DNA of 37,794 bases from a virus: positions 1 to 37,794 of IMG/VR virus record IMGVR_UViG_3300049027_000104. The stretch is one strand, 5' to 3'. The translations under genes were made by a program, and so were the position numbers. Each line of letters begins with the position of its first letter. Within the stretch, counting starts at the first letter, position 1. This document shows, in pieces, positions 5,578 through 36,458 of this stretch. Under the pieces are notes generated by a model that was not told the origin of the DNA, did not search any database, and worked only from the letters and a program-made list of their open reading frames with translations.

Positions 5578-6180
5578 ATGAAAAAGATAATAACGTTATT
5601 TAAAAGAGACATGTCATCTCGTGATAAAAAGGTGATTAACGAGGTTAATCCTGGAGCTGAGTGGGTCATAGAAGGTAAGGGAATCGCCACAAGAAAGTGG
5701 GACGGAACTTGCTGTATGGTCCAGGATGGAAAGTTTTACAAACGATATGACGCCAAAGCTGGCAAAACTCCCCCTGTAGGATTTATTCCTGCGCAAGAAC
5801 CAGATAAGGTTACCGGCCATCATCCAGGATGGTTACTAGTTGATCAGAACGATCCTGCGGATAAATACCATATGGAGGCTTGGAATGCGCACTGTGAATT
5901 GGTTAAGTTGGGATACGAGAAACCACTGGAAGATGGTACCTATGAGCTCTGCGGACCTAAGATAAATGGTGGTAATGAGACTAGGTTTGGAGATCATGTC
6001 TTAATTAAGCATGGTGAGCACGTATACTCAAATGTTCCTACAGAGTTTGAGGCGTTAAAGCGATGGTTGGCCCCTAGGAATATTGAAGGAATAGTATGGC
6101 ACTCTCCTTCTGGCGAGATGGTGAAGATAAAGAAAAAAGATTTTAAAGATATAAACCCTAGTGGTGAAGTTTGGATGTAA
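5578..6180 (+). CDS. RLIG1-like (DUF5565) RNA ligase
   Basis: Ligases of this superfamily move AMP from ATP to a lysine and then to a 5' phosphate before sealing to a 3' OH. Motif I is RKWDGTCC with K40 as the expected nucleophile. E123 in YELCG fits motif III, EGIVWH (170-175) motif IV and VKIKKK (182-187) motif V. The surrounding words GFIPAQE, PGWLLV, KINGGNE and IKHG recall, from memory, the vertebrate C12orf29/RLIG1 protein, which is an ATP-dependent RNA ligase, rather than T4 Rnl1 or DNA ligases. At 200 residues it is a nearly bare catalytic core. A polynucleotide kinase partner is not visible. Its likely role is repair of cleaved host or phage RNA. Confidence 0.8.
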   Translation: MKKIITLFKRDMSSRDKKVINEVNPGAEWVIEGKGIATRKWDGTCCMVQDGKFYKRYDAKAGKTPPVGFIPAQEPDKVTGHHPGWLLVDQNDPADKYHMEAWNAHCELVKLGYEKPLEDGTYELCGPKINGGNETRFGDHVLIKHGEHVYSNVPTEFEALKRWLAPRNIEGIVWHSPSGEMVKIKKKDFKDINPSGEVWM

Positions 6181-15077: not shown

Positions 15078-15153
15078 CAGAGTGTGGCGCAGCTGGTAGC
15101 GCGCTTGCTTTGGGCGCAAGAGGTCGTACGTTCAAATCGTACCACTCTGACCA
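15078..15153 (+). tRNA. tRNA-Pro (anticodon TGG)
   Basis: A full cloverleaf: acceptor CAGAGTG/CACTCTG, D-arm GCGC with loop AGCTGGTA, anticodon stem CTTGC/GCAAG with loop TTTGGGC (anticodon TGG), a 5-base variable loop, T-arm GTACG/CGTAC with loop TTCAAAT, and an encoded ACCA end. All stems are paired. It reads CCA and probably all proline codons. It lies 12 bases before the next gene, so its 3' end must be processed from a longer transcript. Confidence 0.97.
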
Positions 15154-31808: not shown

Positions 31809-33392
31809 ATGAGCCAAGCACAACGACTTAGTGGTAATAACCCCCTAGCCTATATGGGGGTTGACCCTGTATCTCCTCCCCAATTTGTCATAGAGCAGCG
31901 AGCTCCAGAGACGCATGACTCTCAGAATTACACCTTAGGGGCATGGTGGCTCTGGCAACCAGAGCAGAGGCTCTATTATCTCGTCTCATTATCGGGAAGA
32001 GAGGCTACTTGGGTAGAGTTTGTTGCGGGATCAGCTAACCAATATGTCACCGACAATGGAACAGCTATTCCTGTTGATGGCATATTAAATGTGCTTGGCG
32101 ATGGTAATTATCTGACCACATCAGCTACAGGCAATACGATTACTATTGAGCCAGGAGCCGAACTCTTAACTCAGATTGATGGTGATACTGGCTCGGCAAC
32201 TCCCGAAAATGGAGTTATCTATATCCTTGGTGGCGATAATATTAACACCACGGGAGATGATGCCAGCACTCTATTTATTGCTCTCAGTACCTCTATTACA
32301 CAGCCTAATACTAACCTGACGGGATCTGAAGGAATGTATTCTCTTGGCGGCAATAGGTTTATGCATAACTTTGGGACCAATAATACGTTTCTTGGAACTG
32401 CTGCAGGAAATCTTTCTATCAGTGGTGAAAATAGTGTTGGTATAGGGACTAATGCGCTCCTAAGCCTAACTTCAGGGAATTATAACACTGCCATTGGTAC
32501 ACAATCTCAGGCAAATGCAACTACTGGAACAGAAAATACTTCTTTAGGAGCTTTGTCATTAGCCTCATGCACAACTGGCGGAGAGAACGTTGCTATTGGA
32601 TCTGCCGCCCTACAATCTCTTTCCAGCGGAAGTCAGAATGTCGTTGTTGGAGCAAATGCTGGGCTAGTATTATTTGACGGCAGTGAAAATACATTAATTG
32701 GCGATCAAGCAGGATCTAACTACACCACCAATGAGAGTAGTAATATTCTTATTGGTAATGCTGGTACGATGGGAGAGAGCAATGTTCTTCGCATAGGAGC
32801 TGAGTTCTCGGCTGGTAGTGGTATAGACTCTGCTTACGTAGCAGGTATCTATGGAAGGGCTGTTGGTAATACTAACTCAGCAGTTATTATCGACAGCACT
32901 GGAAAGTTGGGAACTTCTAACGAGAGAAAGTCAGCATTTTCTGCTTACCTAAATCCAGGAGTTAATAACGTAACTGGAGATGGTACGGCTTATACGATTC
33001 TTTTTGATAATGAGGACTTTGATATTCTTGGAGATTATGATCCAACTACCGGAATGTTCACTGCTCCTGTTGATGGCAAATACCAGTTTTATGCTGTTGT
33101 TAATTACACAGTTCCTGGCGGCAGTGGAACTACTGACGCAGCACTTGAGATAGTAACTACTACTCGAACATTCTTTGGTGATACACTGCCTACAAGAAAC
33201 CAATGTACAGGATTTTTCGCGGTCAATAATGGTCTCCATATGCAAGTTTCTTGTTTCCACCAGATGTCTGCGGGGGATACAGCGCACGTTGTTTTTGCTG
33301 CACAAGGAGGAACTAGGACCACGAGCCTCATATCTCCACCTATGGGTGGCGGAGAAAACTGCTGGTTCTACGGCATGTTGATGTTTGATTAA
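31809..33392 (+). CDS. Tail fibre with beta-roll repeats and C1q-like tip
   Basis: 527 residues. The N-terminal 75 residues carry a Trp-rich module (GAWWLWQPEQRLYYLVSLSG). The QIDGDTGSATPENG segment and the repeats (about 190-330, for example GENSVGIGTNALLSLTSGNY) match its paralogue upstream. The C-terminal 140 residues contain YDPTTGMFTAPVDGKYQFYA and end GGGENCWFYGMLMF, the pattern of C1q/TNF-like jelly rolls, a common carbohydrate or protein-binding trimer. It is the probable receptor-binding protein and the last late gene. Confidence 0.78.
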   Translation: MSQAQRLSGNNPLAYMGVDPVSPPQFVIEQRAPETHDSQNYTLGAWWLWQPEQRLYYLVSLSGREATWVEFVAGSANQYVTDNGTAIPVDGILNVLGDGNYLTTSATGNTITIEPGAELLTQIDGDTGSATPENGVIYILGGDNINTTGDDASTLFIALSTSITQPNTNLTGSEGMYSLGGNRFMHNFGTNNTFLGTAAGNLSISGENSVGIGTNALLSLTSGNYNTAIGTQSQANATTGTENTSLGALSLASCTTGGENVAIGSAALQSLSSGSQNVVVGANAGLVLFDGSENTLIGDQAGSNYTTNESSNILIGNAGTMGESNVLRIGAEFSAGSGIDSAYVAGIYGRAVGNTNSAVIIDSTGKLGTSNERKSAFSAYLNPGVNNVTGDGTAYTILFDNEDFDILGDYDPTTGMFTAPVDGKYQFYAVVNYTVPGGSGTTDAALEIVTTTRTFFGDTLPTRNQCTGFFAVNNGLHMQVSCFHQMSAGDTAHVVFAAQGGTRTTSLISPPMGGGENCWFYGMLMFD

Positions 33393-33559: not shown

Positions 33560-33695
33560 ATTTTATAGCGATAAAGCGGTGTCGCTTCATATACCACTTC
33601 CTTGTGTCGTTATTTCTTTGGCGACAATAGGCTATAAAGTAATTTTCTGAGTTTGGTAAGAATAGTATTGATATGGCGATACTTAGTGTGTTCAT
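33558..33695 (-). CDS. Leftward small basic protein, 45 residues
   Basis: The ATG overlaps the preceding stop by one base (TAATG). The peptide begins with a mildly hydrophobic stretch (LSIAISILFLPN) and ends very basic (RKWYMKRHRFIAIK). It would be the last gene of the leftward operon. Evidence is limited to the overlap and position. Confidence 0.4.
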   Translation of the reverse strand: MNTLSIAISILFLPNSENYFIAYCRQRNNDTRKWYMKRHRFIAIK

Positions 33696-33847
33696 TAACT
33701 CGATTCTTTCTTTTCTAACAGATCTATTATTCGCTCCATTCTTTTGATGATAACAAAGTTGTCCTCTTGTAGATTGTCATTAAGTTTTTTTATGGACTCT
33801 TTAATCTCATTCATCTTCCAGATTATTTCTAGCTTATCTAAGGACAT
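33695..33847 (-). CDS. Leftward coiled-coil peptide, 50 residues
   Basis: GAGG lies just before the ATG. The peptide is nearly all helix with heptad hydrophobics (KLEIIWKMNEIKESIKKLND, then IIKRMERIIDLLEKK). It starts three bases after the stop of the MetRS-like gene. Its N-terminal coiled coil could pair with the similar coiled coil that opens the MetRS-like protein. Confidence 0.6.
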   Translation of the reverse strand: MSLDKLEIIWKMNEIKESIKKLNDNLQEDNFVIIKRMERIIDLLEKKESS

Positions 33848-33850
33848 TTA

Positions 33851-34318
33851 TTACCTCACTAAAGTATCTGGCGCGTTGCCACATATTTTGTCTATCATTT
33901 CTTGGACATGATCTCTTCCCACTTCATATTTTATGGACTCTAGTCCAATTTGACGGCGCATCTCATCACTTGTTTGAGGCATAACGGGCTGTATAAGTAC
34001 AGAGATTGCCTCAAGACATTCGCAGGTAACAAATATAACCCCCTCAGCCTCTTCTCTGTTTGTTTTAATAAGCTTCCATGGCTCACTAAAGCTCCAGAAT
34101 TGATTTACCCTATGAACATACTCCCACAGCTTCTCTAATGCTTTGTTATATCTGCATTGATCCATCTGTTCTTTAAAGAATATTACAGTGTCATAGAGCT
34201 CTAGCTTAAGCATCTCATGAGTTATAATCTTATTCTTTATCGAATCTTCTCTTAGATCATCTTTAATTTCTTTGAGACTATCAGAGATGAGCTTTAGTCT
34301 TTGCTCAAGATCATCCAT
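33851..34318 (-). CDS. Orphan methionyl-tRNA-synthetase anticodon-binding domain
   Basis: Residues 58-126 follow the helical anticodon-binding domain of MetRS: KALEKLWEYVHRVNQF, SEPWKLIKTNREE, a helix with LEAISVLIQPVMPQTSDEMR, and QIGLE. W81 in EPWKLIK aligns with the tryptophan (W461 in the E. coli enzyme) that stacks on the anticodon. There is no catalytic Rossmann domain, HIGH or KMSKS motif, so it cannot charge tRNA. The N-terminal 45 residues form a coiled coil instead of the first helix of the native domain, which carries further anticodon contacts. It is translated from an overlap with the upstream gene (TAATG). Binding of tRNA-Met or initiator tRNA is inferred. Confidence 0.75.
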   Translation of the reverse strand: MDDLEQRLKLISDSLKEIKDDLREDSIKNKIITHEMLKLELYDTVIFFKEQMDQCRYNKALEKLWEYVHRVNQFWSFSEPWKLIKTNREEAEGVIFVTCECLEAISVLIQPVMPQTSDEMRRQIGLESIKYEVGRDHVQEMIDKICGNAPDTLVR

Positions 34319-34695
34319 TATTTTTGATCCTGTGATTTTAGTTCATCTATCTTTCTTTCTATCTCTCGCAAGTCTGCTTTAACCCATGTCATATGCCTGC
34401 TGAGCTCGTCATTAATTTTATATACTGATTTTTCTATCTCGCCCTGATCTTCCCTTACCATAAACAAGAGTCTTAAGTGCTGAATAAAATCACCATACAT
34501 GTTGCCGAATAGCCAATGCACATGCGAAATTATAATCATAATCGCACAACATATGGTGTTATTGATTGTGTTATAGCTAGGGCCATACAATGCGGCATAA
34601 GCGGAATTTAAAATTAATAAAATTCCAGAGAATTGCATTAATCGTTTACTAAATTTTTGCATGCTTATTCTTTGTTTTTGATTTTGAAGAGCCAT
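34318..34695 (-). CDS. Leftward membrane protein with coiled-coil tail
   Basis: 125 residues: a basic N-terminus, two hydrophobic helices (FSGILLILNSAYAALYG and TICCAIMIIISHVHWLFG) and a cytoplasmic coiled coil (VREDQGEIEKSVYKINDELS, EIERKIDELK). It overlaps both neighbours: 47 bases with the upstream gene and one base with the MetRS-like gene. The shared coiled coils of these leftward proteins suggest they form a membrane-linked complex. Confidence 0.65.
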   Translation of the reverse strand: MALQNQKQRISMQKFSKRLMQFSGILLILNSAYAALYGPSYNTINNTICCAIMIIISHVHWLFGNMYGDFIQHLRLLFMVREDQGEIEKSVYKINDELSRHMTWVKADLREIERKIDELKSQDQK

Positions 34696-34852
34696 TGGTA
34701 AGAACTATATATCCCCTCGATTTATCCTCTTCTACTTTTTGTTCGAGAGCTGCTATGTTTCGATGAATTTGCTTTAATTCTCGTATCATAAATCCGGAGT
34801 TGATAAGGCTTGAGCATGTGTGAGAAAGGATTATTAGGAAAAAGTGTTCCAT
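34649..34852 (-). CDS. Leftward small membrane / coiled-coil protein
   Basis: 67 residues: one N-terminal hydrophobic helix (MEHFFLIILSHTCSSLI), a coiled coil (IRELKQIHRNIAALEQKVEE) and a basic tail. AGGA lies before the ATG. Its 3' end overlaps the next gene, which has a weak ribosome-binding site of its own, so the two are coupled. Confidence 0.6.
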   Translation of the reverse strand: MEHFFLIILSHTCSSLINSGFMIRELKQIHRNIAALEQKVEEDKSRGYIVLTNGSSKSKTKNKHAKI

Positions 34853-34886: not shown

Positions 34887-35495
34887 TTACTTACTTTGTT
34901 GCTTTGATATTACCCATCTCATAACAGAATCAAACTTAGATGAAGGCAATTCTGCCAGAGATGCTATCTTTAGGTTTTGTATAAGTTGTGGCTTGAGATC
35001 CGAGTTGCCTAATAAAGATTCAAGCTCTTTGTGCTGTTGTACACTTATCCTTTCCTCTCCCTGGTAAGGCCTTTGGTAGCCATTCTTACGAGCTTCGCTC
35101 ATCTGAGACTCCCCATCGTCGTCTTCCCCTGAAGCCACAAGGCCCACAATTGCCGCATACGTGTATCTTCTGAGGTAAGTAATGCATCCTCCAAGGGATT
35201 GTAGATCTTGTTTGGCTGGGTTGATTTTTATTTGTGTTTCAATGAACTGTCCTGATGAGTGAGCAAGTATAGTATGCATATACTGACCATCTTCATGGGG
35301 CAGCACTTGATGAATCACGCTCAGATTATTTTTCGTCAGAGCCGGTCTACTAGCCCTTACAACTTCAGCGAGGTCTGCATATTTGGTCTTAAAGAATGGA
35401 TTGTCTGACGCCATGCCAGCTACTGCCATTTCTGACTGTGCTTTTGCAAGTGCTGCAAATAGTTCGTTGAGTTGTTCTGATCTATTGTTGGCCAT
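34887..35495 (-). CDS. erf: ERF-family single-strand annealing protein
   Basis: ERF proteins are ring-forming recombinases that anneal complementary single strands; in P22, Erf circularises the injected genome. The pattern is clear: an N-terminal helix (LNELFAALAKAQSEMAVAGM), NPFFKTKYADLAEVVRASRP, HTILAHSSGQFIETQIKI, and the core LGGCITYLRRYTYAAIVGLV with the acidic run GEDDDGE. The C-terminal part is variable, as usual. At 202 residues it is a typical length. In a circularly permuted phage it would both circularise DNA and make concatemers for packaging. Confidence 0.92.
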   Translation of the reverse strand: MANNRSEQLNELFAALAKAQSEMAVAGMASDNPFFKTKYADLAEVVRASRPALTKNNLSVIHQVLPHEDGQYMHTILAHSSGQFIETQIKINPAKQDLQSLGGCITYLRRYTYAAIVGLVASGEDDDGESQMSEARKNGYQRPYQGEERISVQQHKELESLLGNSDLKPQLIQNLKIASLAELPSSKFDSVMRWVISKQQSK

Positions 35496-35931
35496 TTGAT
35501 TCTCTCATTTTATTCTCAATTTGATCTAGGTATCCCCCTAATTCTTTTTGGTAAATATCCAAGGCTTCCTGGGAAATTTCTTTATATTTATCAGGAAGCT
35601 CATATATAAACTCATCAATTTTGTTTATTGTTTCCTTTGATTTTTCGGTAACTTTGAATACATCATAATCTGATTTAAGAAGTTCCTGATTATCTATTTT
35701 TAGAATTTCATGAAGTCTTGGCAGTGTATGTTGCATCGTGGCAACCATTGCTTTTTGTTGCGCAATTTTAATGATTAATAACTTTAAAACTCTCATGTAG
35801 GAATTAGGATCTATAATCTTTCTTTTTGAATCGAGTATCTTTTCTTCTTCCACTGATTCTTTAACCAAAGTCTCTATTCTTTTGAGGAGCTCTTCAAATG
35901 AATAATCTTCTAGTTTTTTCCTGAATATCAT
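35482..35931 (-). CDS. Leftward helical protein, 149 residues
   Basis: Mostly coiled coil and charged. The start (FRKKLEDYSFEELLKRIETL) matches that of the 36458-36081 protein (FGKKLEDYKHMELVKELRRR), so the two are distant paralogues or share an N-terminal module. It overlaps the ERF gene by 14 bases and may act with it. No enzymatic motif is seen. Confidence 0.65.
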   Translation of the reverse strand: MIFRKKLEDYSFEELLKRIETLVKESVEEEKILDSKRKIIDPNSYMRVLKLLIIKIAQQKAMVATMQHTLPRLHEILKIDNQELLKSDYDVFKVTEKSKETINKIDEFIYELPDKYKEISQEALDIYQKELGGYLDQIENKMRESNGQQ

Positions 35932-35934
35932 TAC

Positions 35935-36084
35935 TTATACCCTATTCCTATCGCAATTGTGACAAATTCCCTGAGCGCATACACAGTTTTCAGAGCAAGA
36001 TATCTCTTTGCATGAGCAGTGATAACAGAGGCGCCAACCAGCTTCGGTTATGGAGTAGCATTTACATAATTTTTTTGAGTTCAT
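35935..36084 (-). CDS. Cys-rich microprotein, 49 residues
   Basis: ATG 36084 overlaps the preceding stop (ATGA). Ten cysteines in 49 residues (CKC, CYHCSC, CSENCVC, CHNC) fit a pair of zinc-binding or iron-sulphur-like knuckles. There is no signal peptide. The next gene starts three bases after its stop. The spacing of both overlaps argues strongly that it is expressed. Confidence 0.7.
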   Translation of the reverse strand: MNSKKLCKCYSITEAGWRLCYHCSCKEISCSENCVCAQGICHNCDRNRV

Positions 36085-36458
36085 TTAGTATTCTCTCTAG
36101 CTCTATCTGCTTCTGATTTAATACTCTCTAAATCAATGTTGTTGATGTTTTCTGTTGTATCCATCAATATTTGTTTTGTTGACTCAAGGGCCTTTTTCCA
36201 GTACTCAACTGACTCTTTGTCCTGTCTGCCATAAGAATCAAAAAGAAATGCTGGTAAGGCTATGCTGACGGCCGTTGATGAGTAGTCTAATAATGCGGAC
36301 ATTGCCCGTAGTAGGGCTATATCGCATTTACTTGTATCAAAATATGTAGAACTTGAGGAAGTCCTTTTCATGCCATCGAGGATTCCTTTTTCAAATCTTC
36401 TTCTTAATTCTTTTACAAGCTCCATATGCTTGTAATCTTCCAATTTCTTACCAAACAT
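36081..36458 (-). CDS. Leftward helical protein, 125 residues
   Basis: It shares the start motif KKLEDY-x-x-x-E-L with the 35931-35482 protein. A hydrophobic stretch (STAVSIALPAFLFDSYG) lies in the middle and a charged helix at the end (DLESIKSEADRARENTK). It is coupled to both Cys-rich microprotein genes by overlaps. The function is unknown. Confidence 0.65.
   Translation of the reverse strand: MFGKKLEDYKHMELVKELRRRFEKGILDGMKRTSSSSTYFDTSKCDIALLRAMSALLDYSSTAVSIALPAFLFDSYGRQDKESVEYWKKALESTKQILMDTTENINNIDLESIKSEADRARENTK

Follow-up and report, generated by a model that had tools for sequence, protein, structure and literature searches.

A stand-alone phage protein related to the anticodon-binding bundle of MetRS

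In the genome of a tailed phage, we identified a gene for a stand-alone protein of 155 aa, here called Q, that is, judged by its sequence, a relative of the MetRS anticodon-binding bundle without the catalytic domain, and we regard this assignment as firm. The window is the whole stretch of DNA analyzed, a virus record of 37,794 bases. Our best reading is that Q is an exapted core of the MetRS bundle that is without the specificity helix, with a predicted accessory role early in infection, either in RNA binding or as an adaptor. The gene and its parts are as follows.

33851..34318 (-), Q, 155 aa, stand-alone, with the core of the MetRS anticodon bundle (ORF call and profile matches)
33920..34216 (-), recognizable Anticodon_3 core, residues 35-133, MetRS bundle helices 2-5 (PF19303 match)
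34076..34084 (-), EPW, residues 79-81, with Pro80/Trp81 equivalent to E. coli Pro460/Trp461 (alignment)
34217..34318 (-), charged coiled-coil-like N-terminus, residues 1-34, replacing MetRS alpha-1 (no NxxxR; low AF2 confidence)

Relationship of Q to MetRS

Profile searches, named as a check in an earlier sequence-only reading of this DNA, returned significant MetRS matches. Pfam PF19303 (Anticodon_3) matched Q with an E value of 3.2e-9 and 37.3 bits, above the curated cut-off of 23.5 bits, and Anticodon_1 matched at 3.6e-7. The NCBIfam MetRS equivalogs gave 4.2e-18 (PRK12267, metG), 3.8e-15 (TIGR00398), and 6e-15 (one more), and the PDB MetRS chains 1woy/1a8h gave 2.1e-10. The hallmark words cited in the sequence-only reading (KALEKLWEYVHRVNQF, EPWKLIK, and PVMPQTSDEM) are all found in Q. 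As had also been claimed there, the protein is without a catalytic domain: HIGH/KMSKS is absent from the 155 aa and from the phage record, no synthetase was found among the other scanned ORFs of the phage, and PF19303 matches only one place, Q itself, in the whole record. Another class-Ia synthetase was rejected as the source because the NCBIfam matches to ValRS and LeuRS were much weaker than those to MetRS.

In an alignment of Q with 29 MetRS anticodon domains, all columns after helix 1 that are invariant among the 29 (N72, P80, and P111) are present in Q, which also retains the near-invariant W81 (97%), K85, P114, and A60. The P80-W81 pair matches the C34-stacking Pro-Trp of MetRS (E. coli 460/461), and the anticodon-reading Trp that had been proposed to survive in EPW does align with the MetRS Trp. 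The closest MetRS sequences share about 24-36% identity with Q. Since these MetRS-invariant positions are kept at an overall identity to MetRS of only about 20-36%, the pattern argues that the core has been under selection. In a tree of about 100 columns, in which several of the trimmed sequences were badly behaved, non-chlamydial MetRS surround Q, whose own branch is very long.

Replacement of helix 1 and anticodon reading

The first helix of the bundle had been said to be replaced by a coiled coil, and the analysis agrees. An alpha-1 profile run on residues 1-56 of Q scored at best -20.7 bits, which is at the level of shuffled sequences (p=0.29), versus at least 32 bits for real MetRS, and a charged coiled-coil-like stretch lies in its place. 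The helix-1 signature GN..R is found in 29/29 MetRS and not in Q, and an NxxxR motif was sought throughout Q without a match.

This helix matters for specificity. The CAU anticodon is read by three MetRS residues, Asn391, Arg395, and Trp461 (E. coli numbering), which are strictly conserved across domains (PMC10535265), and in simulations of the M. tuberculosis MetRS the prominent anticodon contacts were made by the Asn and the Arg (PMC12757634). Asn391 and Arg395 lie in alpha-1, hence in the part that is replaced, so that Q retains the Trp alone. CAU and tRNA-Met reading by Q is weakened accordingly: its sequence argues against full specificity, while general stacking on RNA may still be possible.

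These residues bear on the proposal that Q is a free tRNA-Met reader that would recognize the CAU of initiator or elongator tRNA-Met and, once bound, shield this tRNA from VapC-type nucleases, sequester it, or brake initiation. The homology to a CAU-reading domain and the retained Trp are in its favor. In addition, hosts are known to deploy VapC-like anticodon nucleases that cleave initiator tRNA, and phages generally avoid carrying the targeted tRNA-fMet (PMC10264068). However, the equivalents of Asn391 and Arg395 are absent, and these two make the prominent contacts in the M. tuberculosis simulations; we consider such a reader improbable. The family relationship from which the sequence-only reading had derived CAU recognition stands, and two of the three recognizing residues are missing; shielding or sequestering of tRNA-Met is possible and is not the best prediction from the sequence.

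Structure prediction

AF2, run with an alignment of five sequences (Q and four viral MetRS domains), gave an all-helical model with a mean pLDDT of 67.7 and a pTM of 0.52. The helical bundle is confident only over residues ~31-110 (pLDDT 74-88), and the N-terminal helix is poor. In Foldseek against the PDB, MetRS structures rank first with a probability of 1.0, yet with E values of at least 0.02; a viral structure library gave no meaningful match to the model. The single-sequence prediction reached a pLDDT of 39 and yielded no usable model. Because the alignment contained MetRS and the single-sequence model failed, the MetRS likeness of the AF2 model is partly built in. By the AlphaFold comparison that had been suggested, a MetRS-like bundle is a tentative fold assignment for Q.

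Gene neighborhood of Q

An ERF annealing gene is followed downstream by a tight run of four small genes (67, 125, 155, and 50 aa), of which Q is the third. The neighboring genes are listed below.

34887..35495 (-), ERF-family single-strand annealing protein, upstream neighbor and one edge of the cargo slot
34649..34852 (-), 67-aa ORF, coiled-coil-like, overlapping the 125-aa ORF
34318..34695 (-), 125-aa ORF: two hydrophobic segments, then a coiled coil at the C-terminus; matches phrog_7686 (Rz-spanin-like) weakly (E=0.004)
33695..33847 (-), 50-aa coiled-coil ORF beginning 3 bases past Q, with weak likeness to the Q N-terminus
31809..33392 (+), fiber-like gene with a C1q domain, convergent, other edge of the cargo slot

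The Q start codon is ATG; the sequence TAATG (34316-34320) joins the stop of the upstream 125-aa ORF to this start, and AGGA about 9 nt 5' of the ATG forms a Shine-Dalgarno-like site. The GAGG of the 50-aa ORF sits within the 3' end of the Q sequence. Upstream in the early region, the proteins encoded at 35482-35931 and 36081-36458 (-) are paralogues with a common FxKKLEDY...EL start.

The 50-aa neighbor resembles the Q N-terminus with p=0.007 against plain shuffles and p=0.02 against heptad-preserving shuffles, and the similarity of the 125-aa ORF to the Q coiled coil is near chance (p=0.33, heptad-preserving shuffles). A leader common to Q and the neighboring ORFs is thus only suggestive. 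No relatives of the 125-aa ORF were found in the viral contigs searched. Q is acidic, with a net charge of -8 (core, -4); with a typical non-specific RNA binder as the only yardstick, this charge is unlike what would be expected, and it counts against RNA docking.

This neighborhood raises the alternative of a protein adaptor, in which RNA binding would be lost and the bundle would be a helical scaffold in a membrane-associated complex with the 125-aa and coiled-coil proteins, acting, for example, in superinfection exclusion or lysis timing. The replaced Asn/Arg helix and the acidic charge fit this alternative, as do the weakly alike coiled coils and an operon of small coiled-coil proteins, one of which has hydrophobic segments and a weak spanin-like match. 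On the other hand, a scaffold would not need the retained Pro-Trp and K85 unless they are structural, and the coiled coils of Q and the 125-aa protein are alike only at a near-chance level. We consider an adaptor somewhat doubtful, although as a mechanism it comes close behind RNA docking.

RNA docking with loosened specificity is the mechanism that we tentatively put forward for Q. The match to MetRS and the retained invariant columns favor this mechanism, as does the use of anticodon nucleases by hosts, and the two missing CAU-reading residues count against it. The phage may have captured a synthetase gene fragment that was joined to a coiled coil resembling those of its neighbors, or re-grew with one, and the bundle core would then have been held under selection. 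The coiled coil would oligomerize Q, alone or with the small neighboring proteins, and the bundle would dock RNA, with the Trp stacking on an exposed base of the anticodon loop at a specificity looser than, or altered from, that of MetRS. Q could thus occupy tRNA anticodon arms in early infection and either shield host tRNAs from anticodon nucleases or alter host translation.

Occurrence of Q and the cargo slot

A single-protein search of viral contigs returned no relatives of Q. Neither Q nor Anticodon_3 was found in 50 related phage records (a positive control was included in one of the two scans), and both were likewise absent from 23 further virus records. Phage and plasmid collections contained no stand-alone copy, their matches having the appearance of full MetRS genes or unannotated fragments. 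Chlamydiota and Gammaproteobacteria genomes likewise held no stand-alone copy; the matches there belong to MetRS frames of great length, and the exceptions are fragments at contig edges, as in genome G399. Homologues by which the conservation of an RNA face could be gauged were therefore not found in the collections searched, which also counts against RNA docking. PADLOC gave no match.

In relatives of the phage, the interval between the ERF and fiber genes holds different, unrelated small genes, and in two of them (L017 and L021) the same slot holds apparent genes of the homing-endonuclease type. Because its content varies between related phages, the position of Q is a cargo slot, in the early region of the phage. 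Variable cargo and a single occurrence, with none in the 50 related records, are what would be seen if Q were a recently captured synthetase fragment that is functionless and heading for loss. Against such decay, the frame is intact, with a ribosome-binding site and a stop-start overlap, and the retention of MetRS-invariant positions at 20-36% identity is not expected of a neutral, diverged sequence. Decay is thus an unlikely explanation.

Possible RNA-level functions of the same phage

Apart from Q, two RNA genes were noted in the phage. One is an RNA ligase:

5578..6180 (+), ATP-dependent RNA ligase (RLIG1 / phrog_14301) with a KWDG motif (RLIG1, 8e-12; phrog_14301, 7e-72)

This RNA ligase was not found in the 50 related phage records. 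The other is a tRNA-Pro (TGG) at 15078-15153 (+); relatives have Glu, Ser, Leu, Lys, or His tRNAs, or none. The private RNA ligase and the tRNA-Pro make RNA-level accessory functions plausible. In T4-like phages, RNA ligases mend tRNA (PMC10264068), and the phage studied here is similar to such repair systems, in which RNA ligase counters anticodon nucleases, in that it has an RNA ligase and that Q could act on anticodon arms. It differs from them in that no polynucleotide kinase was recognizable among the scanned phage ORFs and that the link between ligase and Q is hypothetical. In a co-occurrence test, 12 other viruses with this RNA ligase had no Anticodon_3, so that a partnership of the ligase with Q is merely a hypothesis.

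A more specific proposal is that Q, oligomerized by its coiled coil, grips host tRNAs (tRNA-Met possibly among them) by the anticodon arm and protects them from anticodon nucleases, perhaps passing cut tRNAs to the RNA ligase, or throttles translation initiation in the host. We consider this full scenario a long shot. If it is true, Q would be the first phage effector made from a MetRS anticodon bundle, and if Q binds tRNA at all, it would be a new type of player in the contest of phages with tRNA-cutting defenses.

Comparison with known proteins

Q is like the MetRS anticodon domain (PF19303; PRK12267/TIGR00398) in its helices 2-5, the Pro-Trp of EPW, the invariant Asn and Pro residues, and the predicted bundle. 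It differs from MetRS in having no Rossmann, connective-peptide, or KMSKS domain and no alpha-1 GN..R, and in being a stand-alone protein with an N-terminal coiled coil from a phage of ~38 kb. Full-length MetRS of phages, such as metG of Microcystis phage MaAM05 and the IMG/VR loci L157-L163, belong to the same protein family and are also viral; these are complete enzymes of ~460-520 aa from mostly large genomes, whereas Q is the anticodon bundle alone.

Synthetase domains have been repeatedly reused in cells. Arc1p and Trbp111 are free-standing synthetase-derived proteins or paralogues that, like Q, represent a synthetase piece or paralogue outside the aminoacylation of its own tRNA; they derive from other synthetases or domains, and neither is a lone MetRS bundle or a phage gene. 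The same holds for HisZ and YadB (PMC7373986). A phage protein consisting of the MetRS anticodon bundle only is undescribed so far as we found: the earlier statement that no such protein was known agrees with our searches, in which neither a second example nor a description turned up. Because two of the three reading residues are gone and the stacking Trp stays, Q offers a natural experiment on a bundle without its specificity helix.

Phage group and likely host

The phage is a tailed phage within a large group of uncultivated phages, and viral contigs contain 371 relatives of its major head protein. Among 234 Chlamydiota genomes, 8 also have relatives of the head protein, some of them on whole contigs of phage size; among 369 Gammaproteobacteria genomes, 4 do, and in three of these the relatives are distant. 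Based on this difference in occurrence, Chlamydiota are likely hosts, but the contigs are binned and the assignment is unproven; we treat the group as candidate tailed phages of Chlamydiota. Its head, portal, and terminase genes are present in Chlamydiota genomes G051, G124, G166, G180, G210, G240, G257, and G262.

Several loci of the group carry split genes. The head-protein gene is split in L118, L170/L178, L171/L177, L169/L175, and L172/L176, and the terminase gene is split in L010, L011, L018, and L023, in both cases by insertions of ~0.4-1.1 kb. Rfam introns had no match in the scanned loci, and an open frame runs through some of the insertions, which are possibly inteins or unrecognized introns.
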